Below, in pieces: positions 9,067 to 27,812 of a stretch of DNA of 64,000 bases (its first letter is position 1; each line of letters begins with the position of its first letter). Under the pieces are notes generated by a model that was not told where the DNA came from, made no database searches, and was given only the letters and a program-made list of their open reading frames with translations. The position numbers and the translations under genes were made by a program. Origin of the DNA: Pseudofrankia saprophytica (GTDB lineage Bacteria > Actinomycetota > Actinomycetes > Frankiales > Frankiaceae); assembly GCF_000235425.2 (NCBI RefSeq), contig NZ_KI912266.1, positions 1,936,154-2,000,153 on the forward strand, read 5' to 3'.

Positions 9067-9607
9067 GAATTTGATCTAGTCTTTTCACATCGATGATCGT
9101 CGATGTGTGCTCATTGTGTGCTCATTCCGCACGACCGTGCCATGGGGCATGATCATTCCGGATGAGATGGGCCCGGATTTCTTCACTCTCTGTCACATGG
9201 GGTCGTGACCGTCTGTCACAGCATGTCCTGACGGACTGTAGTTGGCGCTGGTTGTGTGAGGTAGCGCTGCGATGCCCTCTCTCAGCTCCGGTCGCCGCAC
9301 CGGCGCCGAGGCCCCGGCGTACAGCGTCGCCATCGTCCTGCCCCAGCTCGGCGACTGGGAGCCTGCAGCCGACCTGTACCGATATCGGTCCTCGACAGAG
9401 GTGACATTCTGGGCTGCGGCACGACGGGTTGCTGATGTTCCTGTGCGTTGACGACGAGCGGAGCGTGGCAGCGGACGCATCGCGCGGTTGTTCCGGATGA
9501 CATCGGCAGGAAGCGGGCTGGAAGGGCGAAGGCCACGAGGGCTTGGCGTGGTCTCGTGCAGTCGCGCACCGCAAGGTCGGAGGACATCGGTCTCGACCCT
9601 CGTCCGA
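9067..9607. other. Region between tRNA and CRISPR leader
   Basis: Contains a near-perfect inverted repeat at 9086-9107 (CACATCGA...TCGATGTG, one mismatch near the centre) and a repeated GTGTGCTCATT at 9105-9125. The only coding candidate is a 59-codon frame at 9272-9451. The composition is less GC-rich near 9062-9130, which would fit an old integration site, but no integrase remnant is present. Confidence 0.4.
9272..9451 (+). CDS. Possible small ORF
   Basis: A 59-codon frame starting at ATG with GAGG eight bases upstream. The product would have a protein-like centre (YSVAIVLPQLGDWEPAADLYRY) and a basic end. It matches no family I know and could be a remnant or chance. It lies directly upstream of the CRISPR leader. 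Confidence 0.2.
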   Translation: MPSLSSGRRTGAEAPAYSVAIVLPQLGDWEPAADLYRYRSSTEVTFWAAARRVADVPVR

Positions 9608-9661
9608 GACGGACCGATGTATTTCACCCTTATCGCCCGCTAAACTCCCAGGTAATCAAGT
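9608..9661 (+). promoter_or_regulatory. Leader of CRISPR array 1
   Basis: These 54 nt align without gaps to the 54 nt in front of array 2 (24222-24275), with about 34 identical positions by hand count. Shared blocks are GACGGAC at the outer end, TTC-CCC in the middle, and CTAAA..CCCAG.T.A.CAAG next to the first repeat. Such conservation fits the leader that directs spacer integration by Cas1-Cas2 and array transcription. Which bases matter is inferred. Confidence 0.75.
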
Positions 9662-12600
9662 GTCGTCCCCGCCCGCGCGGGGATCTTCCGACCATCCTCG
9701 GATCCCGCCCACTTGATCAGGTGTCGTCCCCGCCCGCGCGGGGATCTTCCCCTGCACCAGAACCCGATGCAGAGTTCTCTGATGTCGTCCCCGCCCGCGC
9801 GGGGATCTTCCCCGCCGCCGTGGCGTCATCTCGCCGAGATGCGCGTCGTCCCCGCCCGCGCGGGGATCTTCCGTCGGCGTCACCTTCGTCACCTACGAGA
9901 ACCCGGTCGTCCCCGCCCGCGCGGGGATCTTCCCCCGCGCCTGGTCGCGGCGCTGGTCGCCGGGCTGTCGTCCCCGCCCGCGCGGGGATCTTCCGCCGCC
10001 GGCGTCCTCGTTACCCTGGACGACGAGGTCGTCCCCGCCCGCGCGGGGATCTTCCCAAGAGCGGCACCGCGATGTTCAAGCTGCGGATGTCGTCCCCGCC
10101 CGCGCGGGGATCTTCCGAGCAGTTCCGGACGTGGATGGAGACGAAGAACGTCGTCCCCGCCCGCGCGGGGATCTTCCGCTCACCACCGAGCCGCACCCGA
10201 TCCTCGAGGAGTCGTCCCCGCCCGCGCGGGGATCTTCCGGGCGAGGGGCCGGAGAGCCCGCCGCCCGCCCCGTCGTCCCCGCCCGCGCGGGGATCTTCCC
10301 CCAGGGGATCTCCGGGCTGACGTCGTTCGGCGGGTCGTCCCCGCCCGCGCGGGGATCTTCCGCAGTCCTCCGACGGCAAGGCCGGGCCGGCATGGTCGTC
10401 CCCGCCCGCGCGGGGATCTTCCCGCCTCCACGTCGGGGCGCAGCCACAGCCTGATGTCGTCCCCGCCCGCGCGGGGATCTTCCCGTGAACGGCGTCGCCG
10501 CGGCGACGAAGGCCGCGTCGTCCCCGCCCGCGCGGGGATCTTCCGACCGAGGACTCTCGGTCCTTGGGTCGTCGTGTGTCGTCCCCGCCCGCGCGGGGAT
10601 CTTCCCACGTGATCGAATAGCTACCCCCAGTGATTGTCGTCGTCCCCGCCCGCGCGGGGATCTTCCGTCCTGTTGAATCGGACCGATACCCTGGCTGGCG
10701 TCGTCCCCGCCCGCGCGGGGATCTTCCCACGTTTGTACCGCCCCTACGCGGGTCGCGAGCGTCGTCCCCGCCCGCGCGGGGATCTTCCCCTGCACGTCAA
10801 GACGGTGCTGTGCGACGAGGCGTCGTCCCCGCCCGCGCGGGGATCTTCCCCCGACCAGGCCAGTTGGAGCGCAGCCCCGGACGTCGTCCCCGCCCGCGCG
10901 GGGATCTTCCGCGGCTGGTCGGCGTGCCGTCGCCGGGCCAGCGGTCGTCCCCGCCCGCGCGGGGATCTTCCCCGCCCGGCATCCTCGCCGACCTGATCGA
11001 CCTGGTCGTCCCCGCCCGCGCGGGGATCTTCCCTCGCGATCGCCGCGATCGGTTTCGGTGGCACGGTCGTCCCCGCCCGCGCGGGGATCTTCCAAACTCG
11101 CGGTCGTGCGGGGTCATGCACGCGGTGTCGTCCCCGCCCGCGCGGGGATCTTCCCTTGGCGGATCTGGCCTTTGGCCTTGGCCCGCTGTCGTCCCCGCCC
11201 GCGCGGGGATCTTCCAGCATCTGCGGCTGGATCTTGTCGGCCGCGTCGGTCGTCCCCGCCCGCGCGGGGATCTTCCCACCGCCGGGCTTCCTATGCCGCC
11301 CTCGGAGAGTCGTCCCCGCCCGCGCGGGGATCTTCCGCGTTCGACCGGCTCGCCCTCCGATGGGGCGGCGTCGTCCCCACCCGCGCGGGGATCTTCCGTG
11401 GAACTCGCGCGTCGAGATCTTGCCGAACAGGTCGTCCCCGCCCGCGCGGGGATCTTCCCTTCCCGGTCACCAGGTTCCGCGGCTACTTCTCGTCGTCCCC
11501 GCCCGCGCGGGGATCTTCCTCCGGTGTTCGGGCCGTACCACCAGGTCGCAGAGTCGTCCCCGCCCGCGCGGGGATCTTCCTCAGCCGCCCGAGTAGCGGC
11601 CCAAATCGAGGCCGTCGTCCCCGCCCGCGCGGGGATCTTCCGCACGTCAACGACCTGTTCCCTGAGGTCCAGGGGTCGTCCCCGCCCGCGCGGGGATCTT
11701 CCCGTCGCCCGGCACTCCCTGGCGACCCAGGTTCAGTCGTCCCCGCCCGCGCGGGGATCTTCCCGTTTCCAGCATCTCGGGCGGCATCTCAGAATGGTCG
11801 TCCCCGCCCGCGCGGGGATCTTCCCAGGCGTTCACGCCCGCCCCGGCGGCACTGTTCGTCGTCCCCGCCCGCGCGGGGATCTTCCGGCACGATGCCGCAG
11901 CAGGGAGCTGTGCAGGCAGTCGTCCCCGCCCGCGCGGGGATCTTCCGATGGGCCGCCTGGTGGCCGGCGGGCTCCTGGAGTCGTCCCCGCCCGCGCGGGG
12001 ATCTTCCGCCGTGGTGCCGCTGGATCGGCCACAGTGGCGTGTCGTCCCCGCCCGCGCGGGGATCTTCCGCAGGGCGCGCGCCTTGATCTCTTTTTGCTTC
12101 AGTCGTCCCCGCCCGCGCGGGGATCTTCCCCTCATCGAGGCGGAGCGGCAGCGGCAGCACATGTCGTCCCCGCCCGCGCGGGGATCTTCCCGCGCTCGGG
12201 GTGGGTGCCCAGTTCGCCGGTCAGTCGTCCCCGCCCGCGCGGGGATCTTCCCGGCACCTACATGGCGTGGGGCGGCGGTGTCGGGTCGTCCCCGCCCGCG
12301 CGGGGATCTTCCCTACGCTGCGATGCGACGTAAAGAACGCAAGACGTCGTCCCCGCCCGCGCGGGGATCTTCCTCGCGGACCCCACGCGCGTCCGGCTGA
12401 CGTACGGTCGTCCCCGCCCGCGCGGGGATCTTCCTCACCTGCCGGAAGTGCGGGAAGGCGGGCCGAGGTCGTCCCCGCCCGCGCGGGGATCTTCCCCACG
12501 TGGTCGAACGGGATGAGCCGAACCCGGCGTCGTCCCCGCCCGCGCGGGGATCTTCCCCCCGGGACCTGGCCGCCATCCGCGACTCCGGAGTCGTCCCCGC

Positions 12601-14157
12601 CCGCGCGGGGATCTTCCCCGTGCCGGTTACCTGCTCCGCGACGTCGAGGGGTCGTCCCCGCCCGCGCGGGGATCTTCCCTCCGAGCCGGCCCCTGGGGCG
12701 ATCCCAACCCGGTCGTCCCCGCCCGCGCGGGGATCTTCCCTACAGCGGAGCCTCCCTCGGAGTTCCCGCCAAGTCGTCCCCGCCCGCGCGGGGATCTTCC
12801 CACCCTGGTCACCCGACTTCGGGACGTGTGGCGGTCGTCCCCGCCCGCGCGGGGATCTTCCCCTGCGGCAGTCGACGCCGGTGACCTTCTACCAGTCGTC
12901 CCCGCCCGCGCGGGGATCTTCCCTTGACCGGGAACTTAACGCCATCTGGTCTCGTGTCGTCCCCGCCCGCGCGGGGATCTTCCCGGCTTGAACTCACCAC
13001 CGGCGGTGTCTACAACGTCGTCCCCGCCCGCGCGGGGATCTTCCGTACTGGCGGAACAGCACGTTGCTCTTGATGACGTCGTCCCCGCCCGCGCGGGGAT
13101 CTTCCCACCTCCAGGATCCGATTGCCGCCGTAGTCGAGGTCGTCCCCGCCCGCGCGGGGATCTTCCGCGATCGGAGATGCTTCATCGCGCACCGATCACG
13201 TCGTCCCCGCCCGCGCGGGGATCTTCCCCACGTCTACGGCGTGCGCACGCCGGCGCCGGAGTCGTCCCCGCCCGCGCGGGGATCTTCCGGAGAACCTCGG
13301 CAGCACGATGCTCCCGAAGATGTCGTCCCCGCCCGCGCGGGGATCTTCCTCGATCGGGCTGAGCGCGGACGAGGTCAAGGCAGTCGTCCCCGCCCGCGCG
13401 GGGATCTTCCCCGCGTGATCTTGCCCGGCACCAGGTGGTACACGTCGTCCCCGCCCGCGCGGGGATCTTCCACGGTCGGCGCGACGCTGCTGACCGCGCT
13501 GCAGGTCGTCCCCGCCCGCGCGGGGATCTTCCCCGCGTCACGTGATCACTGTGAGCGGGGCCGCGGTCGTCCCCGCCCGCGCGGGGATCTTCCCTCGGGC
13601 ATCGGGTCCAGCCATTCGACGTCGCGGTCGTCCCCGCACGCGCGGGGATCTTTCACCATGGCCGAGCCGAGCCGAGCCGAGCCGATCCGGCGCCGGTCGC
13701 CGGTCGTCCCCGCACGCGCGAGGATCTTCCCGACGACCAGAACGCCCAGCTCGACCCCAAGGGGTCGTCCCCGCACGCGCGGGGATCTTCCCACGTCCCA
13801 ACCCTGGGCACCCCATTCGTTTAGGTCGTCCCCGCACACGCGGGGATCTTCCCCGCTGACCAGTGTCGATCCGCACCCACCGACGGTCGTCCCCGCACGC
13901 GCGAGGATGTTCCCGTCGTGTCGCCGGTGACGGTGATCGTCTTGGTGTCGTCCCCGCACACGCGGAGATCTTCCTCAGTCGTCCTGGACTCCGTCGCGAC
14001 GAAGTCTGTCGTCCCCGCGCACGCGGGGATCTTCCAGGCTGGATCCGGGTGACGAGCGGCGCGCCGTGGTCGTCCCCGCACGCGCGAGGATCTTCCCGCG
14101 AGGGCGGTCTCGTTGTCGGTCGTGGTCTCGTCGTCCCCGCACGCGCGGGGATCTTCT
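9662..14157 (+). CRISPR. CRISPR array 1 (type I-E; 74 repeats, 73 spacers)
   Basis: 28-nt repeats start every 61 nt, with 33-nt spacers. The repeat has the I-E hairpin CCCCGC-N4-GCGGGG and ends in ATCTTCC. Exceptions are a 34-nt spacer before 10334, a 32-nt spacer before 11309 and a 48-nt spacer at 13655-13702. Repeats 1-65 carry C at position 12; one of these (11370) has a G-to-A change at position 10. Repeats 66-74 (from 13627) carry A, as in array 2, or a further variant, and most of them have extra substitutions. This decay marks the right end as leader-distal and sets transcription rightward. The repeat count was made by listing every start. crRNAs would be cut by Cas6e (22230-22988). 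Confidence 0.98.
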
Positions 14158-14265
14158 CCAGAGTCTTACCCCTCGCCCCGGCGTGGACCTATCAGGACGC
14201 CCACTGCCAGGGTTGTGCGCCGTTGATGGTTTGATGTGTGCGACAACGTCGATACGGGGGACGTG
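14158..14265 (+). promoter_or_regulatory. Array 1 trailer and presumed cas3 promoter
   Basis: About 108 bp between the last repeat and cas3. No clear terminator hairpin separates them, so read-through from array 1 into cas3 is possible. GGGGGACG just before ATG 14266 serves as the cas3 ribosome-binding site. Confidence 0.4.
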
Positions 14266-17154
14266 ATGCTCGAGTCAGCCTTGGGCGTGGTGTGGGGAAA
14301 GTCGGACGCGCAGGGGTCGCCGCACCTTCTGCTGGGGCATCTGTTCGACACTGCTGCGGTCGGTGAGCTCATCTGGGACCGGTTCCTTGCTCCGGCTGTC
14401 AAGGAGCATCTTGACGGTGCCAGCGACGGGCGGGGCCGCTCGTTGTTCGCTTTGCTGTGCGGGCTGCATGACGTGGGGAAGGCATCGCCGGCGTTTCAGT
14501 CGAAAGACGAGCGGCTCGCCGCGCAGGTTCAGCAGGCGGGTCTCACCTGGGGGCCGTTGAGCCGGAATGACTCGGCGCGTTGGCATCACACCAAGGCGGG
14601 CGCTTCGATCGTCTGGAGCCGGTTCGGGACCGCCGGGTGGTCTTCCTCGGCGAAGAAGTGGGTATGGCCGCTCATCGCGGGGCATCACGGCGTCATCCCC
14701 ACTGCGGGTGCCGCGTTGCAGGTACAGCGTCGTTTGCACGGCGAGGGGGATGTTTGGCGGCAGGTTCAGGACGGCTTCGTCGACCAGGTCGCGACCGGCC
14801 TTGGTCTTGAGGTCGGCGCATTCGCAGAGTTGGGGACGCCGCGCCGAGGCGGCCAGCTCGCCGTGTCAGGTCTGATCATCATGGCGGACTGGATCGCCAG
14901 CGACGAGAAGAATTTCCGCGGCCTGTCGGATCTCGCGGACATCTCCCTCGACAGTGCCCGGGAGCGGGCCGCTTGCGCGTGGGGGAAGCTCGGGTTGCGC
15001 GGCGGCTGGCGTTCGGCGTCGTTGGTACCGTGCGCGACCGCCGAGCTGGTCGAGCGCCGGTTCAGGGTTCCAGCGACCCGGCCGGCGCAGGCCACGGCTG
15101 TCCAGCTCGCGCAGGAGATGCCCGGCCCGGGGTTGCTGATCCTGGAAGCGCCGATGGGCGAGGGGAAGACGGAGGCGGCGTTGGCCGCGGCCGAGGTTCT
15201 TGCGCGGCGGTTCGGCGCGGACGGGCTGTTTGTTGGCATGCCGACGCAGGCGACCTCCGATCCGATGTTCAGCCGGGTTCGGGAGTGGCTGGCCTCGGTC
15301 GATCCCGAGGTGCCGATCGGGCTGTTGCATGGCCGGGCGCGGTTCAACAAGGAGTGGGCGGCGCTGCGCGACCATGTCAGCTTCGCGGGCGTCGCCGACG
15401 AGCAGGACAGCTACGGGATGGACGACTCGTACGGCTCTACTGGAGGCAGCGTTTCTGTGGCTCCGGACAGGACCGCGCATGACGGGGTGGCAGCGGCGGA
15501 CTGGTTCTTCGGCGGGAAAAGAGGGTTGCTTGCGCCGGTGACCGTCGGCACGGTCGATCAGCTGCTGCATGCCGCTACCAGGACCAAGCACGTGATGCTG
15601 CGGCATGCGGGCCTGGCTGGCAGGGTCGTCGTGCTTGACGAGGTGCACGCCTACGACGTCTACATGGCGCAGTTCCTGTTCGAGGCGCTGCGCTGGCTCG
15701 CCGACGCCGGCGTTCCGGTCGTCCTGTTGTCCGCGACGCTGCCGCCCGCCCTTCGCCGGGCGCTGGTAGTCGCGTACATGCAGGGCGCACTGCGGCAACC
15801 CGAGATTGATCTCAGCGACCTGCCCGAGCCGTCTGGCTATCCGAGTACGACGACGGTCTGCGCCATCGACGGGGAGCTGAACGTTGCGGTCAGGTCCGAC
15901 CCGCCGTGGCGGGCGTCGGAAACAGTAACGGTCGACGTGCTCGACGAGACCGAGGACTTCGCACCCCGAACCGTGGCCGAGGCCGTTCTCGCGGAAATCG
16001 GTCGAGACGACGTGGCCGGTGAGCCGCTCGGCTGCGTCCTTGTCGTCTGCAACACCGTCGCCCGTGCGCAGGACATCTACGAGGAGCTTCGGCCTGCGCT
16101 GGGCGACAATCTGGTGCTGCTGCATTCCAGGTTCGTCGCCACGGAACGCGCCCGGCGCACAGAGACGATTGTCGACCAGCTCGGGCGGCCTGGCCGCCAG
16201 GGAGCTGCCGCCAGGCCGCGCCGGCTCGTCGTCGTCGCGACCCAGGTCGCCGAGCAGTCGTTCGATGTCGATGTCGACCTTCTCGTCACCGACCTGGCCC
16301 CGATCGACCTGCTGCTCCAGCGCATCGGCCGACTCCACCGGCACGAACGGCCAGCGAGCGACCGGCCCACCCGGCTGCGACGCCCCCGGGTCCTCGTCAG
16401 CGGCCTGCGACTCGACCCGAACGACCGACCGCCGACCTTTCCCAGAGGGAGCCAGCACGTCTACGGCAACCATCTCCTGCTCCGCTCCGCCGCGCTGGTT
16501 CGCCAGGCCGCGAGCGCGAGCGGCTGGTCGGTACCCGCCGACGTTCCGCGCCTCGTCGCCACCGGTTACAGCGACGACGCCATCTGCCCGCCCGAATGGG
16601 CCGATGCGATCTCCGCCGCCGAGGCCGAGCGGAACGACAAGGAGAGCACGCGTAGGGAGAACGCCAGCGCGTTTCTGCTCGCCGGCAAGCATGATCTCGG
16701 CCGGCCTACGCTTGATGGCCTGCACGAACGGTCGACCGCCCCACTCACGACTGACGAAAGAGTCGCCGCCGTCGTCCGCGACGGCGACGAGTCCGTCGAG
16801 GTCGTGCTCGTCTGCCCCGCCCAAGGCGGCGGCTACCGCACTCTCGGCGGCACCTGGCTCGGCCAGCACGGCGAGGTCCCGACCCATGACGACGCCGTCC
16901 TGGAGGAGGTCGTCGGCGCGACGATCCGCCTCCCGTCCACACGACCGAAGCTCACCGCTGCCGCGCTGGCGCTGAGGCCACTGGACGCGTGGGGCACCCG
17001 CCGCGACCGCGACAACCACCACGACCCCTGGCTCCGGCACAGCCGAGCCCTGGCCGTCGACCCCGATCCGGCATCTGGCGAGTTCACCGCGGTTCTCGGC
17101 GGCCACCACCTCAGCTACCGCCAGGACCTCGGCCTCCGAGTGACGGGCCGATGA
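14266..17154 (+). CDS. cas3: CRISPR-associated nuclease/helicase Cas3 (type I-E)
   Basis: Cas3 is recruited by target-bound Cascade and unwinds and degrades the DNA. The 962-residue product has both halves intact. HD nuclease: H25 (LLLGHL), H68-D69 in HDVGKASPAFQ, HH around 107-108 and 140-141, D208 in MADWIASD. SF2 helicase: Walker A PMGEGKTE near 297-304, DEVH at 458-461, SATLPP at 489-494, and motif VI QRIGRLHRH near 685-693. The start was set at ATG 14266 because of the GGGGGACG site; the frame also opens ten codons earlier at a GTG. The length is usual for actinobacterial I-E Cas3. It is followed by a roughly 700-bp gap before the Cascade genes, so it may be regulated separately from them. 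Confidence 0.97.
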   Translation: MLESALGVVWGKSDAQGSPHLLLGHLFDTAAVGELIWDRFLAPAVKEHLDGASDGRGRSLFALLCGLHDVGKASPAFQSKDERLAAQVQQAGLTWGPLSRNDSARWHHTKAGASIVWSRFGTAGWSSSAKKWVWPLIAGHHGVIPTAGAALQVQRRLHGEGDVWRQVQDGFVDQVATGLGLEVGAFAELGTPRRGGQLAVSGLIIMADWIASDEKNFRGLSDLADISLDSARERAACAWGKLGLRGGWRSASLVPCATAELVERRFRVPATRPAQATAVQLAQEMPGPGLLILEAPMGEGKTEAALAAAEVLARRFGADGLFVGMPTQATSDPMFSRVREWLASVDPEVPIGLLHGRARFNKEWAALRDHVSFAGVADEQDSYGMDDSYGSTGGSVSVAPDRTAHDGVAAADWFFGGKRGLLAPVTVGTVDQLLHAATRTKHVMLRHAGLAGRVVVLDEVHAYDVYMAQFLFEALRWLADAGVPVVLLSATLPPALRRALVVAYMQGALRQPEIDLSDLPEPSGYPSTTTVCAIDGELNVAVRSDPPWRASETVTVDVLDETEDFAPRTVAEAVLAEIGRDDVAGEPLGCVLVVCNTVARAQDIYEELRPALGDNLVLLHSRFVATERARRTETIVDQLGRPGRQGAAARPRRLVVVATQVAEQSFDVDVDLLVTDLAPIDLLLQRIGRLHRHERPASDRPTRLRRPRVLVSGLRLDPNDRPPTFPRGSQHVYGNHLLLRSAALVRQAASASGWSVPADVPRLVATGYSDDAICPPEWADAISAAEAERNDKESTRRENASAFLLAGKHDLGRPTLDGLHERSTAPLTTDERVAAVVRDGDESVEVVLVCPAQGGGYRTLGGTWLGQHGEVPTHDDAVLEEVVGATIRLPSTRPKLTAAALALRPLDAWGTRRDRDNHHDPWLRHSRALAVDPDPASGEFTAVLGGHHLSYRQDLGLRVTGR

Positions 17155-17217
17155 CCGCCTGGCTGCGCTGCCTCGACGCTGATTTGGGCTGAGGTGGCGT
17201 TGGCTGGTTCCTTGAAC

Positions 17218-17233
17218 CCCGCTGTGGCGGGGA
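17218..17233 (+). repeat. CRISPR-repeat-like hairpin
   Basis: CCCCGC-TGTG-GCGGGG followed by A. The stem sequence, four-base loop and trailing A are the same as in the CRISPR repeats (CCCCGC-ACGC-GCGGGG-A), while the bases outside the stem differ. It lies 64 bp after the cas3 stop. It could be a cas3 terminator, a degenerate repeat, or a site read by Cas6e. Confidence 0.4.
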
Positions 17234-17385
17234 CGGCTTACGCCCGTGTCGGTGCTCGAAGAGCGCCTACGGATGACCCCGGCGATGGGCTGGGACCATG
17301 CCACGGTATCTCAGATCGACTGATCGTCGAGAGAGTCGCCTCTGTAAGAGAGCCTAATTGGCCGTTCATGTAGAGTGACGCCGAC

Positions 17386-17727: not shown

Positions 17728-17858
17728 GCCAACGAACGAGATGGACGTCGCTTAGAAGCAACGACGGTCCTTGCTGAAGAGCAGAACTGTCGGTGGTGGC
17801 GAGTAGACATCAGGTGGTGCTCGACGACGAGGTCGGGCCGGCGAAAGACGGGGGTGCG

Positions 17859-19508
17859 ATGGTCACGTTCAGTCTCATTGATGAGCATTGGATACCGCTG
17901 GTTCGGGAAGGACGCCGGGTAGAGGTCGGCATCCGCTCGGCGCTGGTGGAAGCACACAAGTTCGATGGGCTCGCCCTCGACGATCCACTCGAGGCAGTCG
18001 CGGTCTTCCGGCAGATTCTTCTGCCGATCGTTCTGGATGCGTTCGGTGCGCCGGTGGACAACGAGCAGTGGTCCGCACGGTGGCACGTCGGAGAGTTCAA
18101 CAGCGGACCGATCATCAAATATCTGGAGGACCGCAGGGCCAGGTTTGACCTGTTCGACGACACGCAGCCGTTCGCACAGGTAGCAGGACTGCGGACGGCG
18201 AAGGACGAGACGAAGCCAGTGTCTCTGCTGATACCGCGGCTGGCCACCGGCAACAATGTCCCGCTGTTCAGCGCGCGCACTGAGGACAACCCGCCGGCGC
18301 TGTCGGCAGGGGCCGCAGCGCGTGCACTGCTGGCCGCGCATTGTTGGGACACGGCAGCGATCAAGTCCGGCGCGGCCAACGACCCGCGAGCATCGGCAGG
18401 GAAAACGACCGGCAACCCGACAGGTCCGGTCGGGCAGCTCGGGGTGGTGGTCCCGCTGGGAGCGAAACTCTTCCATACCCTGATGCTCAACGCGCAGATC
18501 CGGCCGCGTGGGTCTGATGACCGACCACAGTGGGACGCGGAGAGTCCCGCTGATGACACATGGTTCGAACGTTCCGCGAAGGGCGTTCTGGATCTGCTGA
18601 CCTGGCAGTCCCGGCGGATCCGCCTCATCCCCGAGCAGGTGAGCGAGGGGGGCGAGCTCGTCGTGCGCCAGGTCGTTCTCACCGCGGGTGATCGTCTGCG
18701 CGGCGCGGTCCACGATTTGGAACCACACACGGCCTGGAAGCAGGTGGAGAAGCCGAAAGCCGATGAGCCGCCCTTGCGGCCCGTGCGACACCAGCCGGGG
18801 CGTGCGGCCTGGCGTGGGTTGGAAGCGTTGCTCGCGACCAATGTGCAGACAAAGGAAGGCATCTCGGCACCGGCGTTGCTGACGCAGTTGGCGGGACTGC
18901 AGGTGTACGACCTCGTCCCAGAGAACCTGCCCTTGCGGGTACTGACCGTCGGGGTGCGGTACGGCAACCAGTCCGCCGTCGTCGAGGACGTCATGGTCGA
19001 CGAGATCCCGTTGCCTGTGGTCGCGCTGGTCGGAGTCTCGGAGGTCCGGGAGACCGTCCTGACCATCGCAGACCAGGCCGAGCAACTAAGGATCGCGGCG
19101 AACCAGCTCGGCAACGATCTGCGAGCTGCCGCCGGCGGCGCCAAGGTGCCCTGGGACAAGAGCCAACGGCTCGGCGACGTGCTGGTCCACGCTCTCACCC
19201 CGGCAGTGCGCCGACTGCTTACCGGGCTCGCGCGCAACCCTGACAAGACACGCGACGCGTTGAAAGCCTGGACGATCACGGCCCGCCGACTCGCCTGGGA
19301 AGTCGCCGAACCGGCGCTCTCAGACGCCCCTCCTGGCGCTTTCCTGGGCCGCGATCCCGACAAGCAGTATGGTCCGCGGCTCGCGACCGCGGAGATGTCG
19401 TTCACCCGGTCCCTCACCAACATTCTTGGCCTGCCCCAAGCGCCCGCCGGCCCGGCCCAGGCATCCGCCAGCCCAGCTCCGGCACCCGCCGCCGCGCCAG
19501 CACTCTGA
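17859..19508 (+). CDS. casA: Cascade large subunit Cas8e (Cse1/CasA)
   Basis: Cas8e recognises the PAM and recruits Cas3 in type I-E Cascade. The start was set at ATG 17859, giving the typical opening VTFSLIDEHWIPLV, with a GGGGG site upstream; the frame is open for 22 further codons. Family features seen: FDGLALDDPLEAVAVFRQILLPI, the LDAFG/W..R...G.F following it, FDLFDDTQPFAQV, PRLATGNNVPLFSART, and the C-terminal four-helix region (LAWEVAEPAL...FTRSLTNILGL). The length of 549 residues is usual. The last 25 residues are an Ala/Pro-rich extension not needed by the fold. It is the first gene of the tight Cascade cluster, with cse2 20 bp downstream. Confidence 0.95.
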   Translation: MVTFSLIDEHWIPLVREGRRVEVGIRSALVEAHKFDGLALDDPLEAVAVFRQILLPIVLDAFGAPVDNEQWSARWHVGEFNSGPIIKYLEDRRARFDLFDDTQPFAQVAGLRTAKDETKPVSLLIPRLATGNNVPLFSARTEDNPPALSAGAAARALLAAHCWDTAAIKSGAANDPRASAGKTTGNPTGPVGQLGVVVPLGAKLFHTLMLNAQIRPRGSDDRPQWDAESPADDTWFERSAKGVLDLLTWQSRRIRLIPEQVSEGGELVVRQVVLTAGDRLRGAVHDLEPHTAWKQVEKPKADEPPLRPVRHQPGRAAWRGLEALLATNVQTKEGISAPALLTQLAGLQVYDLVPENLPLRVLTVGVRYGNQSAVVEDVMVDEIPLPVVALVGVSEVRETVLTIADQAEQLRIAANQLGNDLRAAAGGAKVPWDKSQRLGDVLVHALTPAVRRLLTGLARNPDKTRDALKAWTITARRLAWEVAEPALSDAPPGAFLGRDPDKQYGPRLATAEMSFTRSLTNILGLPQAPAGPAQASASPAPAPAAAPAL

Positions 19509-19528
19509 CCCCGATCCCGGAGACCACC

Positions 19529-20107
19529 ATGACCACTGAGTCCGTCGCCCCGGCCCCGACGTCAGCGCAGGCGGAACCACCCCAGCCTGACTTCTTCTGG
19601 GAACGTCCGAACCGCGCCAACCCACGGAGTGGCGCCGATCTGGCGGCGCTGCGCCGCGGGGTGGGCCGGGAAGCGGGCAGTGTCCCGGAAATGTGGGGCT
19701 TCTACCGCATGCTCACCGCAACGGGCCGGGCCTCCGAAAAACTCCAGGCAGAGCACACCGCGCTGACCCTGTACGCCGTTCACCAGCAGTCGATCTCAGA
19801 TTCGATGCACCGACCTGGCGTCGGCCTGGGCAGGGCGCTGTTGAGGCTGCGCCAAAGCGGCACGTTCAGCGTGGACGCGGTCGATCGGCGGTTCAACGCG
19901 GCGGCGACCGCCACCTCCCTGGACGAGGCCTCATACCACCTCCGTGGCCTGGTCCGCCAGCTGCGGGGAATACCGCAAGGCCTTGACTACACCCGCCTGT
20001 TCCAGGACCTGGTCGCCTGGCAGGTCCCCGAGCAGATCAGCACCGTCCGCCGCCGCTGGGGCAGGGACTACTTCACCGGACGCGACCAGACAGAGAAGGC
20101 CATCTAA
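19529..20107 (+). CDS. casB: Cascade small subunit Cse2 (CasB)
   Basis: A small helical subunit present in two copies along the belly of type I-E Cascade, where it stabilises the crRNA-target hybrid. The 192-residue frame has the family layout. A 20-residue Pro-rich leader is followed by DLAALRRGVGREAGSVPEMWGFYRML, then HTALTLYAVHQQS, GVGLGRALLRLRQSG and VDRRFNAAATATSLDEASYHLRGLVRQLR, then the C-terminal YTRLFQDLVAWQ...VRRRWGRDYF. ATG 19529 is preceded by GGAGACCACC. It sits between cas8e and cas7; the 131-bp gap to cas7 is the longest inside the Cascade cluster and is relatively AT-rich, so an internal promoter there is possible. Confidence 0.95.
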   Translation: MTTESVAPAPTSAQAEPPQPDFFWERPNRANPRSGADLAALRRGVGREAGSVPEMWGFYRMLTATGRASEKLQAEHTALTLYAVHQQSISDSMHRPGVGLGRALLRLRQSGTFSVDAVDRRFNAAATATSLDEASYHLRGLVRQLRGIPQGLDYTRLFQDLVAWQVPEQISTVRRRWGRDYFTGRDQTEKAI

Positions 20108-20238
20108 CCACACAACCGCCGGACTCTCTCGGCGTTTCACCCGTCGTCGGCGCGACGCCCACGCCGTCTTGAACAACCACCCCACCCTGTTCTCGCGTAC
20201 CTTTTTCCTGTTTCGGGACAAGAAAGAGAGCCACTCCT

Positions 20239-21378
20239 ATGCGCTGCTACATCGACGTTCACATCCTGCAGACCGTCCCGCCCTCAAACCTGAACCGTGA
20301 CGACGCCGGAACGCCGAAGCAGGCGGTCTACGGCGGGACGAAGCGTGCCCGCGTCTCCTCCCAGGCGTGGAAGCGCGCGACGCGGACCGCGTTCGCCGAT
20401 CAGGTCGATGAGGCCCAGCTCGCGACCCGCACCAAGAAAATCTCCGAACTTTACGCGAAGCGGATCGCTGCCCGCTGCGGCCTCGACCAGGACGCGAGCA
20501 CCCGGCTTGCAACCAGCGTCCTGACCGGGGCCCTCGGCATCAAACCGGGCAAGAAGGCAACCGAGACCGCCTACCTGCTGTTCTTCGGCCGCCCGCAGCT
20601 CGAACGGCTCGTCGACCTGGTCGAGAACGACGCCGAGCGCCTCGCAGCATTCGACGACACCAGCCTCGCCGCCGAGGTCAAGGGCCTACCGGTCAGGAAG
20701 ATCCTCGGCAGTGGTCACCCGATCGACGTGGCGCTGTTCGGCCGGATGGTCGCGGAAATCCCCGCGCTGAACGTCGACGCCGCCACCCAGGTCGCGCACG
20801 CCCTGTCGACGCACGCCGCGGATGTCGAGTTCGACTACTACACGGCCGTGGACGACGAGAACCCGAAGGAGGAGACCGGCGCCGGGATGATCGGTACAGT
20901 CGAGTTCCAGTCCGCGACGCTCTACCGGTTCGCGACCGTCGGCCTGCACCAACTTGCCGACAACCTCGCGGGCGACGTGGAAGCGACCGTCGAGGCGCTG
21001 CAGGTCTTCCTCAGCGCGTTCGCGACGTCGATGCCGACCGGGCATCAGAACTCGTTCGCGCACCGCACGCCCCCCAACCTGCTCGCGGTCGCGGTCCGCG
21101 CAGACCAGCCAGTCAACCTCGTCTCCGCTTTCGAGAAGCCCGTCCGCGGCCAGGGCGTCCTCGACGAGTCCGCCCGGCGCCTCGCGAAGGAGATGACCGA
21201 CGTCGGCCAGCTGTGGGGCCTCACCCCGACCCTCACCGCCGCCACCTACCGCGCCCCGGACGACCAGCAGGACGCGAAAACACTGACCACCGCCTTCGGC
21301 CCGGCGGTCCCGTTCACCACGCTGGTCTCGACGATCGTCACGGCCGCCCGCGAACAGCTGAAGAACGCCGCCCAGTGA
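20239..21378 (+). CDS. casC: Cascade backbone subunit Cas7 (Cse4/CasC)
   Basis: Cas7 forms the six-subunit helical backbone that holds the crRNA spacer. The 379-residue product opens with CYIDVHILQTVPPSNLNRDDAGTPKQAVYGG and continues KRARVSSQAWKRATR, both diagnostic of the I-E Cas7 RRM fold. TGHQNSFAHRTPPNLLAVAVR lies in the C-terminal half. A ribosome-binding site (AAGAAAGAGAG) precedes ATG 20239. Its stop overlaps the GTG start of cas5 (GTGA), indicating translational coupling. Nothing suggests truncation. Confidence 0.97.
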   Translation: MRCYIDVHILQTVPPSNLNRDDAGTPKQAVYGGTKRARVSSQAWKRATRTAFADQVDEAQLATRTKKISELYAKRIAARCGLDQDASTRLATSVLTGALGIKPGKKATETAYLLFFGRPQLERLVDLVENDAERLAAFDDTSLAAEVKGLPVRKILGSGHPIDVALFGRMVAEIPALNVDAATQVAHALSTHAADVEFDYYTAVDDENPKEETGAGMIGTVEFQSATLYRFATVGLHQLADNLAGDVEATVEALQVFLSAFATSMPTGHQNSFAHRTPPNLLAVAVRADQPVNLVSAFEKPVRGQGVLDESARRLAKEMTDVGQLWGLTPTLTAATYRAPDDQQDAKTLTTAFGPAVPFTTLVSTIVTAAREQLKNAAQ

Positions 21379-22226
21379 ACGCCTCATCGTCGACGGCCTC
21401 GGTGGACGCCCCCCGCTCCTGCCTGGTGCTGCGCCTCGCCGGCCCGATGCAGTCCTGGGCCGGGCCCAGCATGTACAACCGCCGCGACACCGGCACCGAA
21501 CCAACCAAGAGTGGCCTGATAGGCCTGCTCGCCGCTGCCCAGGGCCGGCGGCGCACCGACTCGATCGAGGACCTTCTCGGCCTCGTCCTCGGAGTACGCA
21601 CCGATCAGCCTGGCACGCTGCTGCGCGACTACCACACCGTCAGCGACTATCGCGGCCGCCCGCTGCCGTCGGCGGCGGTGACCGGCAAGCACGTCCAGAA
21701 GCCCACATCCCCCGCGAAATACACGGGGGTCACCGAACGGTTCTACCTGCAGGACGCCGTTTTCGTCGCTGCCGTCGGCGCGCCCGATCCATTGTTGGCC
21801 GCCCTTGCCGACGCGCTGCGCAACCCTGCCTTCCCGCTCGCCCTCGGCCGCCGTGCCTGCCCACCCACCCAGCCGCTTCTCCTGCCTCCCAACCGCCGCG
21901 AGAAGCCTGACGCGGTGACATGGCCCGGCGCGGTTGACGAGGTCCTGCGCGAGGTGCCCTGGCAGGCCACCCCCAGCCACAAGGAGAAGTCCGACCGTCG
22001 CCCTGCCCGGCCGAATGGCATCGCCCTGCCCGTCACTCTCGATGACCCCAGGGGTGACGACGTCCGGATGGACCTTCCCAGCACCTTCGACCCGCTGTCC
22101 CGGTCGTTCACCAGCCGCCGCGTCCGCCAGGACTGGGTCCACCTCTCGTCCTCGCCGCCCTACGGGCCGGCCGGTGACGGTGGCGGCGCGGGCAGCCACG
22201 ACCCCTTCGCTCTTCTCGGATGGTGA
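21375..22226 (+). CDS. casD: Cascade subunit Cas5 (CasD)
   Basis: Cas5e caps the crRNA 5' handle in Cascade. The start was set at GTG 21375, which overlaps the cas7 stop; the frame opens further upstream inside cas7 but only as a shadow. The 283-residue product shows LVLRLAGPMQSWAGPSMYNRRDTGTEPTKSGLIGLLAAAQG near its N-terminus, the classic Cas5 RAMP signature, and FYLQDAVFVAAV and FPLALGRRACPPTQPLLL in the middle. The C-terminal region RSFTSRRVRQDWV fits family members. It is followed three bases later by cas6e. Confidence 0.95.
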   Translation: MNASSSTASVDAPRSCLVLRLAGPMQSWAGPSMYNRRDTGTEPTKSGLIGLLAAAQGRRRTDSIEDLLGLVLGVRTDQPGTLLRDYHTVSDYRGRPLPSAAVTGKHVQKPTSPAKYTGVTERFYLQDAVFVAAVGAPDPLLAALADALRNPAFPLALGRRACPPTQPLLLPPNRREKPDAVTWPGAVDEVLREVPWQATPSHKEKSDRRPARPNGIALPVTLDDPRGDDVRMDLPSTFDPLSRSFTSRRVRQDWVHLSSSPPYGPAGDGGGAGSHDPFALLGW

Positions 22227-22229
22227 CCG

Positions 22230-22988
22230 ATGCCCTACCTGTCCCGAGTCTGGCTCCACCCGCTGCGCCAGGGCGCCCAGAAACTGATCCGCAGTCCCGA
22301 GGCGATGCACGCGGCCGTCCTCGGCTCCATCGCCCGCCACCCCGTCACCGAACGCGTCCTCTGGCGGCTCGACACCCCGATCGACCGCGCCGATCCACGT
22401 AACCACCGAGCCGAGCTGCTCGTGCTCACCGACTCCCGCCCGTCCTGGGATCACGTCATCGAACAGGCCGGCTGGACCAACGCCGAGGACCCCCAGGCTC
22501 TCGTTCGTGATTATCAGCCGCTACTCGACCGCATCCAGGCCGGCCGCGAGTTCGGCTTCCGCCTACGCGCCAATCCGGTCTCCGCGACCCGCAACCCCGC
22601 GAGTCCAACGGCCAGGCAGAAGGAACGCCTGGCCGCCCCCCGGCCCCGTGGCGTACGCGTCGCGCACCGCACCGCGGCCCACCAGCTCGACTGGCTCACC
22701 AGCCGCCTCGACCGCTGGGGCTTCACCCTGCTCACGACCCCGGACGGCGGGGACGGCACGATCCCTATGGTCCAGCTGTCCGCACGCGACCGGCTCATCT
22801 TCTTCAAGAACGGCCATGACGCGGACGCCCAGACCCGCCGGGTCGTCCTGAACACCGCGACGTTCGACGGCGCCGTTCGCATCACCGACTCCGAGCTGGC
22901 CCGCCGGACACTGCTCGCCGGCGTCGGTGCCGGCAAAGCCTACGGCTGCGGCCTGCTCACCCTCGCGCCGCTCGCCGGAGGCGGCTGA
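22230..22988 (+). CDS. casE: crRNA endoribonuclease Cas6e (CasE)
   Basis: Cas6e cuts the array transcript at the base of each repeat hairpin and stays bound to the 3' handle. The 252-residue product starts YLSRVWLHPLRQGAQKL, has the likely catalytic His at about residue 27 (AMHAAVLGS, equivalent to His20 of the E. coli enzyme), and ends with the glycine-rich loop GVGAGKAYGCGLLTLAPL typical of RAMP proteins. It lies three bases after cas5 and one base before cas1. The repeat stem it should recognise, CCCCGC-N4-GCGGGG, is intact in nearly all repeats of both arrays. Confidence 0.96.
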   Translation: MPYLSRVWLHPLRQGAQKLIRSPEAMHAAVLGSIARHPVTERVLWRLDTPIDRADPRNHRAELLVLTDSRPSWDHVIEQAGWTNAEDPQALVRDYQPLLDRIQAGREFGFRLRANPVSATRNPASPTARQKERLAAPRPRGVRVAHRTAAHQLDWLTSRLDRWGFTLLTTPDGGDGTIPMVQLSARDRLIFFKNGHDADAQTRRVVLNTATFDGAVRITDSELARRTLLAGVGAGKAYGCGLLTLAPLAGGG

Positions 22989-22989
22989 C

Positions 22990-23982
22990 ATGTGGTGGCT
23001 GTCCGACCCGCAGGATCTGCACCGCATCGAGGACCGGATCTCGAGCCTCTACGTCGAGAAATGCCACGTCGACCGGGCCGACAACGCCGTCGTTCTCGTG
23101 AACAAGGAACGCACGGTCCGCGTCCCGGCGGCGTTCGTCGCCACCCTCTTGCTCGGCCCCGGCACCCGCATCACCAGCGGCGCCGTGCGCCTCCTCGCCG
23201 ACTCCGGGACCGCCGTGTGCTGGGTCGGGGAGCGAGGGGTACGGATGTATGCCGCAGGCCTCGGCCCCAGCCGCGGCGCCGGCCTGCTCATGCGCCAGGC
23301 CTACCTCGTCACCCGCACCAAAGAACGCCTCGCCGTCGCACGGCACATGTACGGGATGCGCTTCCCCGACGACGACGTCAGCGACGCCACCATGCAGCAA
23401 CTACGCGGCAGAGAAGGCGCCCGCGTCAAAAAGATCTACCGCGAGCATGCGAAACGCACGGGCGTCGACTGGACCCGCCGCGACTACAAACCCGGCGAGC
23501 CGTTCGCCGCCGGCGACGACATCAACCGGCTGCTCTCAGCCGGGCACAGCTGCCTCTACGGCATCTGCCACGCCGCGATCGTCGGCATCGGCGCCAGCCC
23601 AGCCCTCGGCTTCGTCCACACCGGCGGCGCCACCTCCTTCGTCCTCGACATCGCCGACCTCTACAAAGCCGAATACACCATCCCGCTCGCGTTCGACCTC
23701 GCCGCCCGAGGCCAGACCGACGAACGCGCCATCCGCACCGCCTTCCGCGACCGAGTCGCCGACGGTCACCTGATGGCCCGCATCATCCGCGACATCAAGA
23801 CCCTGCTCCTCGGCGACGAAGCCGACTTTCCAGACCAGGACTCGCTCCACCTCTGGGACGAGTTCGACGGCGCCGTAGCCGGCGGCGTCAACTGGGCAGC
23901 CGACCTCGCGGACCTCCCCGCCGAGAACACCATCGTCGGCGTCACCGGACCCGACCTCGACGAACAGCCACCACCCTGGTGA
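22990..23982 (+). CDS. cas1: CRISPR integrase Cas1 (type I-E)
   Basis: Cas1 with Cas2 inserts new spacers at the leader end. The 330-residue product has all three metal-binding residues: E142 (GREGARVKK), H210 (LGFVHTGG) and D223 (LDIADLYKAEY), aligned to E141/H208/D221 of E. coli Cas1. The start was set at ATG 22990, one base after the cas6e stop, giving the expected opening WWLSDPQDLHRIEDR. The frame is open upstream within cas6e but is not Cas1-like there. The stop overlaps the cas2 start by three bases (GTGA). An active adaptation module is plausible given the long arrays. Confidence 0.97.
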   Translation: MWWLSDPQDLHRIEDRISSLYVEKCHVDRADNAVVLVNKERTVRVPAAFVATLLLGPGTRITSGAVRLLADSGTAVCWVGERGVRMYAAGLGPSRGAGLLMRQAYLVTRTKERLAVARHMYGMRFPDDDVSDATMQQLRGREGARVKKIYREHAKRTGVDWTRRDYKPGEPFAAGDDINRLLSAGHSCLYGICHAAIVGIGASPALGFVHTGGATSFVLDIADLYKAEYTIPLAFDLAARGQTDERAIRTAFRDRVADGHLMARIIRDIKTLLLGDEADFPDQDSLHLWDEFDGAVAGGVNWAADLADLPAENTIVGVTGPDLDEQPPPW

Positions 23983-24257
23983 CCGTCGTCGTCCTCATCG
24001 CCACTGCCCAAGGACTCCGCGGCCACCTCACCCGCTGGATGATCGAAGTCGCCGCCGGCGTCTTCGTCGGCAACCCCAGCGCTCGCGTCCGCGACCGCCT
24101 CTGGGCCCTCCTCGCCGACCGAGTAGGAGACGGCCAAGCCATCATGATCGAACCAGCGAACAACGAACAGAAATGGGCAGTCCGCACCGCCGGCCGCGAC
24201 CGCGGCGAACCCATCGACTACGACGGACTAATACTGTTCGCCCGCCCCCGCCACTAA
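23979..24257 (+). CDS. cas2: CRISPR adaptation protein Cas2 (type I-E)
   Basis: A short gene hidden in a longer frame that begins in shadow inside cas1. The start is GTG 23979 overlapping the cas1 stop, giving 92 residues: TVVVLIATAQGLRGHLTRWMIEV...GVFVGNPSARVRDRLWALLADRV, a clear Cas2e opening, and GEPIDYDGLILFARPRH at the end, aligning to the PVDLDGLRLVSF end of E. coli Cas2. It bridges two Cas1 dimers in the integration complex. Only 18 bp separate its stop from array 2, and its last 12 codons coincide with the conserved leader of that array. Confidence 0.96.
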   Translation: MTVVVLIATAQGLRGHLTRWMIEVAAGVFVGNPSARVRDRLWALLADRVGDGQAIMIEPANNEQKWAVRTAGRDRGEPIDYDGLILFARPRH

Positions 24258-24275
24258 AACCCCAGCTCAGCAAGC
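24222..24275 (+). promoter_or_regulatory. Leader of CRISPR array 2, overlapping cas2
   Basis: Gapless alignment to the array 1 leader (9608-9661) gives about 34 of 54 identical positions. The first 36 nt encode the end of Cas2 and its stop codon, and the TAA stop is part of the conserved CTAAA block. TAATACT at 24229-24235 could serve as a -10 element about 41 bp before the first repeat. The function is inferred from conservation. Confidence 0.7.
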
Positions 24276-26775
24276 GTCGTCCCCGCACGCGCGGGGATCT
24301 TCCGGATCTTCGTCACGTCGTATGTGAACGCAAACGGTCGTCCCCGCACGCGCGGGGATCTTCCCGCCGTCGTGATGAGGCTGCCCAGCAACATCGGGTC
24401 GTCCCCGCACGCGCGGGGATCTTCCCCCCGACTTCTTCACGATGACCGCCGACGCGGAGTCGTCCCCGCACGCGCGGGGATCTTCCCGCAGCGCTGATGG
24501 CGTTACGCAGCGCAGTCAGGTCGTCCCCGCACGCGCGGGGATCTTCCCCACAGCGGGCGGTCGACCACCGTGCCGGTGATGTCGTCCCCGCACGCGCGGG
24601 GATCTTCCCCCGTCCGCGCGCCGGCCGGCCACGGCCACGGCGTCGTCCCCGCACGCGCGGGGATCTTCCGATCGACACCTGCGAGCAGCGCCTGCCCGTC
24701 CAGTCGTCCCCGCACGCGCGGGGATCTTCCGCCGGAACTCACAGTGAAGGTCATCCTGGCGGAGTCGTCCCCGCACGCGCGGGGATCTTCCGTAGTCCGG
24801 GTGCCGCTTAGACCGGCGCCATTCGTCGTCCCCGCACGCGCGGGGATCTTCCGTGCAACAGATCACCTACCGGCTTGCGGACGAGGTCGTCCCCGCACGC
24901 GCGGGGATCTTCCGTCTCTGGTAATCGGACGCAATCGAGCGGCTAGGTCGTCCCCGCACGCGCGGGGATCTTCCCGTTGCGCTGAAAAACGCCCGGTCGT
25001 GCGGGGTGTCGTCCCCGCACGCGCGGGGATCTTCCCGGATATCCAGCCGGACGGGCGACCCCGAAAGCGTCGTCCCCGCACGCGCGGGGATCTTCCTTCT
25101 CGCGTCCGGTCCCAATCGACCAGGCAAAGGTCGTCCCCGCACGCGCGGGGATCTTCCCGGCGAGGCCGGGCGCGCGGCGTGTCCCGCGCGGTCGTCCCCG
25201 CACGCGCGGGGATCTTCCGATCCTGTTCACGCGGGTGCCGGTCCGGGCTGGGTCGTCCCCGCACGCGCGGGGATCTTCCCTCTCCGATATCCAGCGGCAG
25301 CGGAGTGAAGTAGTCGTCCCCGCACGCGCGGGGATCTTCCTGCCGTTGCTACTGTTGCGGTGACCGAGGACTAGTCGTCCCCGCACGCGCGGGGATCTTC
25401 CTCCGAACCCGACCAGGACCTTGATAACGCGGATGTCGTCCCCGCACGCGCGGGGATCTTCCGTTGCGCGCCGCAGCGCTGGCCAGCGGTATGACGTCGT
25501 CCCCGCACGCGCGGGGATCTTCCTTCATCTGGCCTGGCCCGGCCGGCAACCTGCTGTCGTCCCCGCACGCGCGGGGATCTTCCCCCCTTGCGCGCCGCGA
25601 TGCTCTCCGCGAACGAGTCGTCCCCGCACGCGCGGGGATCTTCCGCCCAGCGCATCGCCCTCGAGGCCGCCCGGGGAGTCGTCCCCGCACGCGCGGGGAT
25701 CTTCCACCCACCTCACCGTTCATGAAGGTATCCGGCAGGTCGTCCCCGCACGCGCGGGGATCTTCCGTGGTGATCGCTCCGGCGTCGCGGCGGGGGCCGG
25801 TCGTCCCCGCACGCGCGGGGATCTTCCGGGATCGGCATGTCAGGTCACCCCGTTCACGCGGTCGTCCCCGCACGCGCGGGGATCTTCCGTCGCCGACGCC
25901 CTCGGCGTCCCGCTCGGCGACGTCGTCCCCGCACGCGCGGGGATCTTCCCGAGCCCATCACTGACTCGACGTCGTAGCGGCAGTCGTCCCCGCACGCGCG
26001 GGGATCTTCCCGGATCGCTTCCCACATCGCGACGTGGGACCCGGTCGTCCCCGCACGCGCGGGGATCTTCCGCTCGTCGCAGGCGTTGCATTGGCCCAGG
26101 TGGGGTCGTCCCCGCACGCGCGGGGATCTTCCGATGTGGACCTCACCGGGGTCGACGGCGCGGCGGTCGTCCCCGCACGCGCGGGGATCTTCCCCCGACT
26201 ATCGACGGGTCGGAACGGGCGCGCACGTCGTCCCCGCACGCGCGGGGATCTTCCTTCGCGGGTACGGTCCCACGTGACCAGGCAGAGGTCGTCCCCGCAC
26301 GCGCGGGGATCTTCCGACGGGCGAGCCCCTGCCGGCGGTCGTGCTGTGGTCGTCCCCGCACGCGCGGGGATCTTCCGTAGCCGACGTTCGGATAGATCGA
26401 CGTGAAGAAGTCGTCCCCGCACGCGCGGGGATCTTCCCGAGTTCGACATCGTCACCACGCCGATGTCGACGTCGTCCCCGCACGCGCGGGGATCTTCCTC
26501 CCAGCGCGCCCGCCCCACCAACCCCACCTATGTCGTCCCCGCACGCGCGGGGATCTTCCCGTCAGCACCGGCGGCGGCGCCGGATCGGGCACGTCGTCCC
26601 CGCACGCGCGGGGATCTTCCGGGCACCGCCGGCTACATGGTGATCTCGCCATAGTCGTCCCCGCACGCGCGGGGATCTTCCCCACGTCTACGGCACGCGC
26701 ACGACGGCGCCGGAGTCGTCCCCGCACGCGCGGGGATCTTCCCGCCGTGACGTACTCGGCCGTCGTGCGGTCGGG

Positions 26776-27019
26776 GTCGTCCCCGCACGCGCGGGGATCT
26801 TCCCGGCGACGGCGACGTGCGGCAGGCGCGGACGGAGTCGTCCCCGCACGCGCGGGGATCTTCCCCGACTGGCGGGAGGTCCAGCTCCCGTGGTGGAGTC
26901 GTCCCCGCACGCGCGGGGATCTTCCCGGCGACGGCGACGTGCGGCAGGCGCGGACGGAGTCGTCCCCGCACGCGCGGGGATCTTCCCCGACTGGCGGGAG
27001 GTCCAGCTCCCGTGGTGGA
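26776..27019 (+). repeat. Tandem duplication of a two-spacer block in array 2
   Basis: The 122-bp unit 26776-26897 (repeat, spacer, repeat, spacer) is repeated exactly at 26898-27019. This is best explained by unequal recombination between repeats. Confidence 0.95.
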
Positions 27020-27629
27020 GTCGTCCCCGCACGCGCGGGGATCTTCCCGGACCCGCGCCGCCGCCGAGGTGGCCGCCATGGTCGTCCCCGCACGCGCGGG
27101 GATCTTCCCGACGGGATATCCGGCCTCTGCGCGATGATGACGTCGTCCCCGCACGCGCGGGGATCTTCCGTCGATCTTGGGACGATCCGCGTCAGCGATC
27201 CGGTCGTCCCCGCACGCGCGGGGATCTTCCCCACGCGGGCCCTGGCGGCAGGGCTCGCAGGATGTCGTCCCCGCACGCGCGGGGATCTTCCCGGGCGCGC
27301 GACGCGATGGACCGCGCCGCGCAGGTCGTCCCCGCACGCGCGGGGATCTTCCCTCCATCGAATTCATTCTTACCTAGGTGTCAGGGTCGTCCCCGCACGC
27401 GCGGGGATCTTCCCGCGAAACAGACGATCCGGCATTCGGTCGCCGCGTCGTCCCCGCACGCGCGGGGATCTTCCCATCGCGAGCGGGCTAAACGTGGCGA
27501 TGCCGTTGTCGTCCCCGCACGCGCGGGGATCTTCCGGTCGACCGCCGGTACCGACTGCGGGAGCGGATGTCGTCCCCGCACGCGCGGGGATCTTCCGACC
27601 AACACGGCGAGGGTCGAAACCCAGAAGGG

Positions 27630-27812
27630 GTCGTCCCCGCACGCGCGGGGATCTTCCCACGGTCGATGACGGCGACGGCTGGGGCGAGGCGTCGTCCCCG
27701 CACGCGCGGGGATCTTCCCACGGTCGATGACGGCGACGGCTGGGGCGAGGCGTCGTCCCCGCACGCGCGGGGATCTTCCCACGGTCGATGACGGCGACGG
27801 CTGGGGCGAGGC
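27630..27812 (+). repeat. Triplicated spacer-repeat unit in array 2
   Basis: Three consecutive 61-bp units carry the same 33-nt spacer (27658-27690, 27719-27751, 27780-27812). This suggests repeat-mediated expansion after acquisition. Confidence 0.95.

Follow-up and report, generated by a model that had tools for sequence, protein, structure and literature searches.

A single polar switch of repeat sequence in a Frankiaceae type I-E CRISPR array, probably inherited from the leader end

Array 1 of Pseudofrankia saprophytica changes its repeat sequence once along its length; the polar block is real, and the order of the repeat types is tidy. The array occupies positions 9662 to 14157 of the window, by which we mean the whole 64,000-nucleotide stretch of DNA that was analyzed, and each of its 74 repeats, 28 nt long, was parsed. 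Position 12 is C in repeats 1 to 65 (65/65), of which 64 are exact copies and one, repeat 29, also carries G10A; it is A in repeats 66 to 71, 73, and 74 (n = 8) and G in repeat 72. The variant thus forms one contiguous block at the leader end, with the older type on the trailer side, and a random order would give this exact arrangement of 65 letters and then 9 with a chance of 9e-12. We regard it as probable that the switch reflects leader-first inheritance of a mutated first repeat, and below we weigh that reading against three others.

Array 1 and the type I-E locus

The type I-E locus is complete in the window, where array 1, the cas genes (14236-24257), and array 2 all lie on the + strand (Table 1). 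Each of the eight genes scores above the curated cut-off of a type I-E or core Cas model (8/8), cas3 doing so on its core and HD domain models; on the full-length I-E Cas3 model, the window cas3 scores below the cut-off, and the best-scoring named relatives of its product are from Frankia. The repeats are likewise of the I-E kind, being 28 nt long with a hairpin that has a 4-base loop, and nearly all spacers are 33 nt. The host genome amounts to 9.98 Mb in two contigs, and a whole-genome scan that allowed at most 3 mismatches returned 173 repeat sites, which is the total of arrays 1 and 2. The sequence-only reading had described C in repeats 1 to 65, A or a variant in repeats 66 to 74, and A throughout array 2; our parsing of the 173 repeats agrees. 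It also placed the switch between 13566 and 13627, and these are the starts of repeats 65 and 66.

Table 1. Features of the type I-E locus in the window
Feature	Position	Strand	Remarks
Leader end of array 1, 60 nt shown	9602..9661	+	58/60 nt identical to G001 array leader
Array 1 repeats 1-65, C-type block (GTCGTCCCCGC-C-CGCGCGGGGATCTTCC)	9662..13593	+	65/65 C at position 12
Spacer 65, boundary spacer of C block and A tail	13594..13626	+	33 nt, repeat 65 (C) to repeat 66 (A)
Array 1 repeats 66-74, decayed A-type tail	13627..14157	+	Eight A, one G at position 12
Spacer 66, GCCGA tandem	13655..13702	+	48 nt
cas3	14236..17154	+	cas3 core and HD models above their cut-offs
cse1, cse2, cas7, cas5, cas6e (type I-E)	17793..22988	+	Each above curated cut-off of its I-E model
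cas1e	22927..23982, start approximate	+	TIGR03638 364.8 bits (cut-off 215.6)
cas2e	23979..24257	+	TIGR01873 62.6 bits (cut-off 33.15)
Gap between cas2 stop and array 2, 18 nt	24258..24275	+	Resembles leader 1 end
Array 2, A-type repeats	24276..30280	+	99 repeats

Because the leader lies on the left of array 1 and the decayed repeats lie on the right, the C block is the newer part and the A tail the older. Spacers 1 to 64 have a C repeat on either side, and therefore at least 64 retained acquisitions followed the switch. A spacer comparison that required a common 14-mer, and so misses some near matches, listed no duplicated spacers within array 1. The boundary gives an order rather than a date, since deleted spacers are uncountable and there is no rate to apply; the earlier proposal that it dates the switch to 65 acquisitions or duplications ago therefore stands as a minimum of 64 retained acquisitions and fails as a date.

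The A tail is decayed. Substitutions outside position 12, ten in all, affect eight of the nine tail repeats and only 1 of the 65 repeats of the C block (Fisher P, 5e-9), and the comparison with the last nine repeats of array 2, of which two are changed, points the same way (8/9 versus 2/9; P, 0.015). The switch had previously been taken to be independent of this decay, a view that we cannot uphold, as both break at one boundary. Since the switch and the jump in decay share one point, it is possible that array growth paused or that older material was joined on; either could explain the jump, which the loop mutation alone could not. Two changes recur in the tail, G19A in repeats 67, 70, and 73 and G14A in repeats 69, 71, and 72, each in tail repeats that do not adjoin. 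We rejected these as older leader-first switches because their order alternates along the tail. The chance that two positions would be struck at least three times among ten changes is 0.014 with family-wide position weights and 0.003 with equal weights, and hotspots or exchange between repeats are possible sources of the recurrence. Spacer 66, at 48 nt, is 15 nt above the usual 33 and contains a GCCGA tandem at 13661-13689; its extra length looks like slippage by three 5-nt units.

In array 2, position 12 is A in 99/99 repeats, and single variants occur only in repeats 68, 88, 94, and 95. Its leader probably overlaps the end of cas2, to judge from the sequence. The last 24 nt of the array 1 leader share 17 identical positions with the array 2 leader, and leader 1 (9602-9661) resembles the end of cas2 in the window (24200-24275) at 36/60 nt; a copy of the junction between cas2 and array 2 may have given rise to array 1. 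Array 2 contains internal repeat-spacer duplications at spacers 42 to 45 (26776-27019) and 56 to 58 (27630-27812). Spacer 59 of array 1 (13228-13260) and spacer 40 of array 2 (26682-26714) are alike at 30/33 bases, as if related invaders had been sampled by both arrays. Against 50,697 phage records, the spacers gave only weak partial matches, to 13 records for array 1 (best E, 3e-2) and to 4 for array 2 (best E, 1e-1); the matches being weak, no targets are claimed for either array. To the right of array 2 (30281-64000 and onward) are genes for a tyrosine recombinase (31334-32806), a DNA methylase, a type IV secretion pilin, TraG/TrwB-like proteins, a replication-relaxation family protein (43542-44951), and an IS110-type transposase (49541-50800), and this region is likely to be an integrative conjugative element.

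Repeat letters and blocks in related genomes

Of 35 family genomes, 19 contain the repeat in exact form when any letter is allowed at position 12. A locus scan found 27 loci, of which 18 were read for arrays; the other nine are distant and mostly from Firmicutes. Position 12 is nearly always uniform within one array among the arrays read, and it varies between arrays and between genomes: it is A in seven genomes (G010, G011, G012, G027, G029, G033, and G025) and C in six (G003, G004, G007, G008, G032, and G034), and a further genome (G016) has one array with G and a second with A. The G-type array of G016 (L069) has three more differences from the A type, and both of its arrays are fixed. Other arrays have further fixed variants, for example, T25G in 26/26 repeats of a G008 array. 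Among 31 arrays of at least 8 repeats, a minority variant is present in at least five repeats in three arrays, always as one contiguous block at the trailer end.

One of these relatives, the same-genus genome G001, has nearly the leader of array 1. Its array comprises 13 repeats, eight with C and then five with A, behind a leader 58/60 nt like that of array 1, and its left flank is colinear with window positions 953-9661. In no genome was the array 1 leader found with A repeats at the leader end; G001, the sole genome with the same leader, has C there. The shared-14-mer comparison listed no spacers common to G001 and the window's genome, and the A repeats of G001 are undecayed (0/5, versus 8/9 in the window tail; P, 0.003). 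The switches in the two genomes could be one old event with later spacer loss or two separate events, both of which are possible.

The array of G001 (L030, reverse strand, 7134-7893) has perfect repeats, and no Cas3 (E values up to 1e-5) or Cas1 (E values up to 1e-30) was detected in the genome. It ends 16 nt past its last repeat, inside a truncated gene that we take to belong to a SAM-methyltransferase-like family. The window's genome has a relative of that gene 36.6 kb beyond array 2, and therefore a deletion cut the G001 array. We considered G001 as a simple recombinant of arrays 1 and 2, in view of its order of eight C and five A repeats and its lack of a detected cas3 or cas1, and this is possible; however, its right flank is unlike that of array 2, and one deletion that started inside the array is the simpler account of its layout.

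A second relative, G025, has a block of the same layout at another position: in one of its arrays, the 11 repeats nearest the leader carry G4C, whereas the 10 older ones have G. Its second array has no such block and carries G4C in repeat 12 alone. These two arrays are divergent and lie about 400 nt apart (L096, about 3530-3925), with the end of a cas2-like frame between them; Cas1 gave no match in this genome at 1e-30, and the cas operon appears to have been deleted between the two arrays.

Other relatives depart from strict polarity. Across the 35 genomes, an exact search found C-then-A junctions in G001 and G003 and A-then-C junctions in G003 only; in G003, junctions of either kind surround one A repeat, repeat 25, which stands alone among C repeats. 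This search misses the window's own junction, because repeat 66 has a further change. In G019, a fragmentary array, located at the edge of a contig, shows T13 in repeats 2 to 9 and C13 in repeats 1, 10, and 11. The sequence-only reading had held that alternation of types in relatives would speak against it, and such alternation is seen weakly, in the lone A of G003 and the C13-flanked T13 block of G019. Together with repeat 12 of the second G025 array, these cases indicate that exchange between repeats or arrays probably takes place at some rate.

On the Cas1 tree (18 rows, 15 from Frankiaceae, each labeled by the array that adjoins cas2, with the G019 labels taken from arrays behind runs of N), at least four letter changes fall within Frankiaceae, and good support is confined to 5 of 15 inner branches. 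G003 and G007, which are the nearest relatives, have C throughout the arrays seen, save for repeat 25 of G003, and it is not certain that A is the ancestral letter of the genus.

Origin of the switch

The evidence for leader-first inheritance is the perfect polarity of array 1, with its single break, and its orientation: the C block stands at the leader, as it does in G001, and the decayed end is the trailer. The sequence-only reading had already proposed that a mutated leader-proximal repeat was copied onward, and this idea gains from the comparable blocks in G001 and G025 and from the published parts that we draw on, which describe both the copying step (PMC4081107) and stretches of variant repeats (PMC2886076). 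The leader-proximal repeat would have changed from A to C once the present repeats 66 to 74 stood in place. The change, lying in the hairpin loop, would have done no visible harm and would have been copied to every later repeat, of which 65 remain. Point mutations would have eroded the older A repeats, for the most part around the time of, or following, a standstill or trimming of the array. We infer the single mutational origin, this order of events, and the pause from the arrangement of the repeats. Several observations run counter to leader-first inheritance, namely, the jump in decay at the switch boundary, which is sharper than that at the end of array 2; the undecayed A repeats of G001, for which no spacer in common with the window's genome was listed; the presence in G003 (repeat 25) and G019 (the T13 block) of differences without polarity; and the prevalence of C in the arrays seen of G003 and G007.

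The first of these would be expected if no mutation had occurred in place and the A tail were what is left of a different or far older array, recombined between repeats onto a C-type array, because repeat type and decay level would then shift at one point, as they do. The genome does contain an A-type array, namely, array 2; the two arrays flank the cas operon and point the same way, so that exchange is possible; and G001, with its cut array and no match to Cas3 or Cas1, indicates that array-cutting deletions did happen. The joint itself, however, has no leader-like insert or leader remnant; spacer 65 is normal at 33 nt, and the 48-nt spacer one unit on is explained by its 5-nt tandem. Furthermore, the 14-mer comparison listed no tail spacer in common with array 2, and one G025 array shows this layout at position 4, the other array of that genome being without the block. 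We therefore consider a join of two arrays to be unlikely.

A different source for the C was also weighed: the leader-proximal repeat could have received it by gene conversion from a C-type array, either one then present in the same genome or one from a related strain, after which normal copying would have followed. C-type arrays are common among the relatives, and the block letter of G025 also occurs singly in repeat 12 of its other array, which hints at exchange. In addition, A and C commonly differ between arrays, yet A-to-C or C-to-A changes at position 12 make up only 2 of the 62 scattered variants. Array 1 is, however, the sole C-type array left in the window's genome, and one base cannot separate conversion from mutation. 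Gene conversion seems to us very unlikely.

The last alternative is functional, and it starts from the earlier suggestion that a C in the loop alters recognition by Cas6e. The tetraloop begins with position 12, and the predicted hairpin has the same structure with A (-15.5 kcal/mol) as with C (-15.1 kcal/mol), whereas the tail variant G19A gives -8.6 kcal/mol. The variant thus lies outside the stem and leaves the predicted fold unaltered, and A, C, and G are all found at this base in the family; the suggestion is not supported by these results. The position 12 letter is clustered on the Cas6e tree, where 19 of 500 shuffles were as low for A, and the Cas6e proteins of C-type genomes are closer to that of the window (66 to 80% identity) than are those of A-type genomes (59 to 67%). 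The identities are suggestive of Cas6e-specific coevolution with the letter, but this was rejected, since the Cas7 tree shows like clustering (12/500) and needs the same two changes. The clustering being equal on the two trees, the letter follows lineage. That the loop C would alter Cas6e processing, so that the two arrays were processed differently and the switch was selected, is highly improbable, despite the clustering and the closer Cas6e proteins of C-type genomes, given the like behavior of Cas7, the unchanged predicted hairpin, and the single Cas6e that handles both letters in the window's genome.

Leader-first inheritance of a mutated repeat leaves the matter of what kind of change sweeps an array. 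The three sweeping blocks (A12C twice and G4C once) are all transversions, whereas 48 of the 62 scattered variants are transitions, 43 of them C to T or G to A, in a tally that leaves out the window tail, G001, G025, and repeats with more than two differences. The chance that all blocks would be transversions is about 0.012 for three events and 0.05 for two, should a single event account for both G001 and the window. It is a doubtful proposition that array-sweeping switches belong to a mutation class other than that of scattered decay. Such a class would fit errors made in filling the duplicated repeat at spacer insertion, or exchange between arrays, and the requirement for an intact hairpin stem would filter such changes.

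Relation to known systems and significance

The process that would underlie the switch is already known, and array 1 is a clear new instance of it in Frankiaceae. In the type I-E system of E. coli, the relevant part of the published work describes both strands of the leader-proximal repeat as templates at spacer insertion (PMC4081107); the copying step is common to both cases, but that work is a reaction experiment and, in that part, concerns no natural switch. In Escherichia and Salmonella, stretches of conserved repeat variants suggest, according to the portion of the survey used here, that the new repeat is a duplicate of the adjacent one (Touchon and Rocha 2010, PMC2886076). Array 1 resembles those arrays in having a run of a common repeat variant within an array, and it differs in that the run extends over 65 repeats with one break, the older type forms a decayed tail, and the array belongs to an actinomycete. 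Terminal repeats are commonly degenerate, for example, in Streptococcus agalactiae (PMC4466440); trailer-end decay is found in both, but in the portion of that report considered here, it concerns the last repeat, whereas nine repeats differ in array 1, eight of them with further changes. The actinomycete I-E palindrome has been given as CC(T)CCGCNNNNGCGGG(A)G, with a loop of four free bases, in an account whose repeat for Frankia sp. CcI3 is identical to the A-type repeat of array 2 (PMC4762764); the C-type letter and a switch within an array were not met in the part of that account that treats the CcI3 repeat.

Blocks of this kind are natural markers. They allow the direction of array growth to be read from sequence alone, set a lower limit on the acquisitions that have followed a known change, and make it possible to trace array segments across strains even when these have no spacers in common. 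If sweeping changes do differ in class from scattered decay, array tails would record the error signature of the insertion step, and the fidelity of repeat filling, which is hard to measure directly, would be reflected in collections of such blocks.
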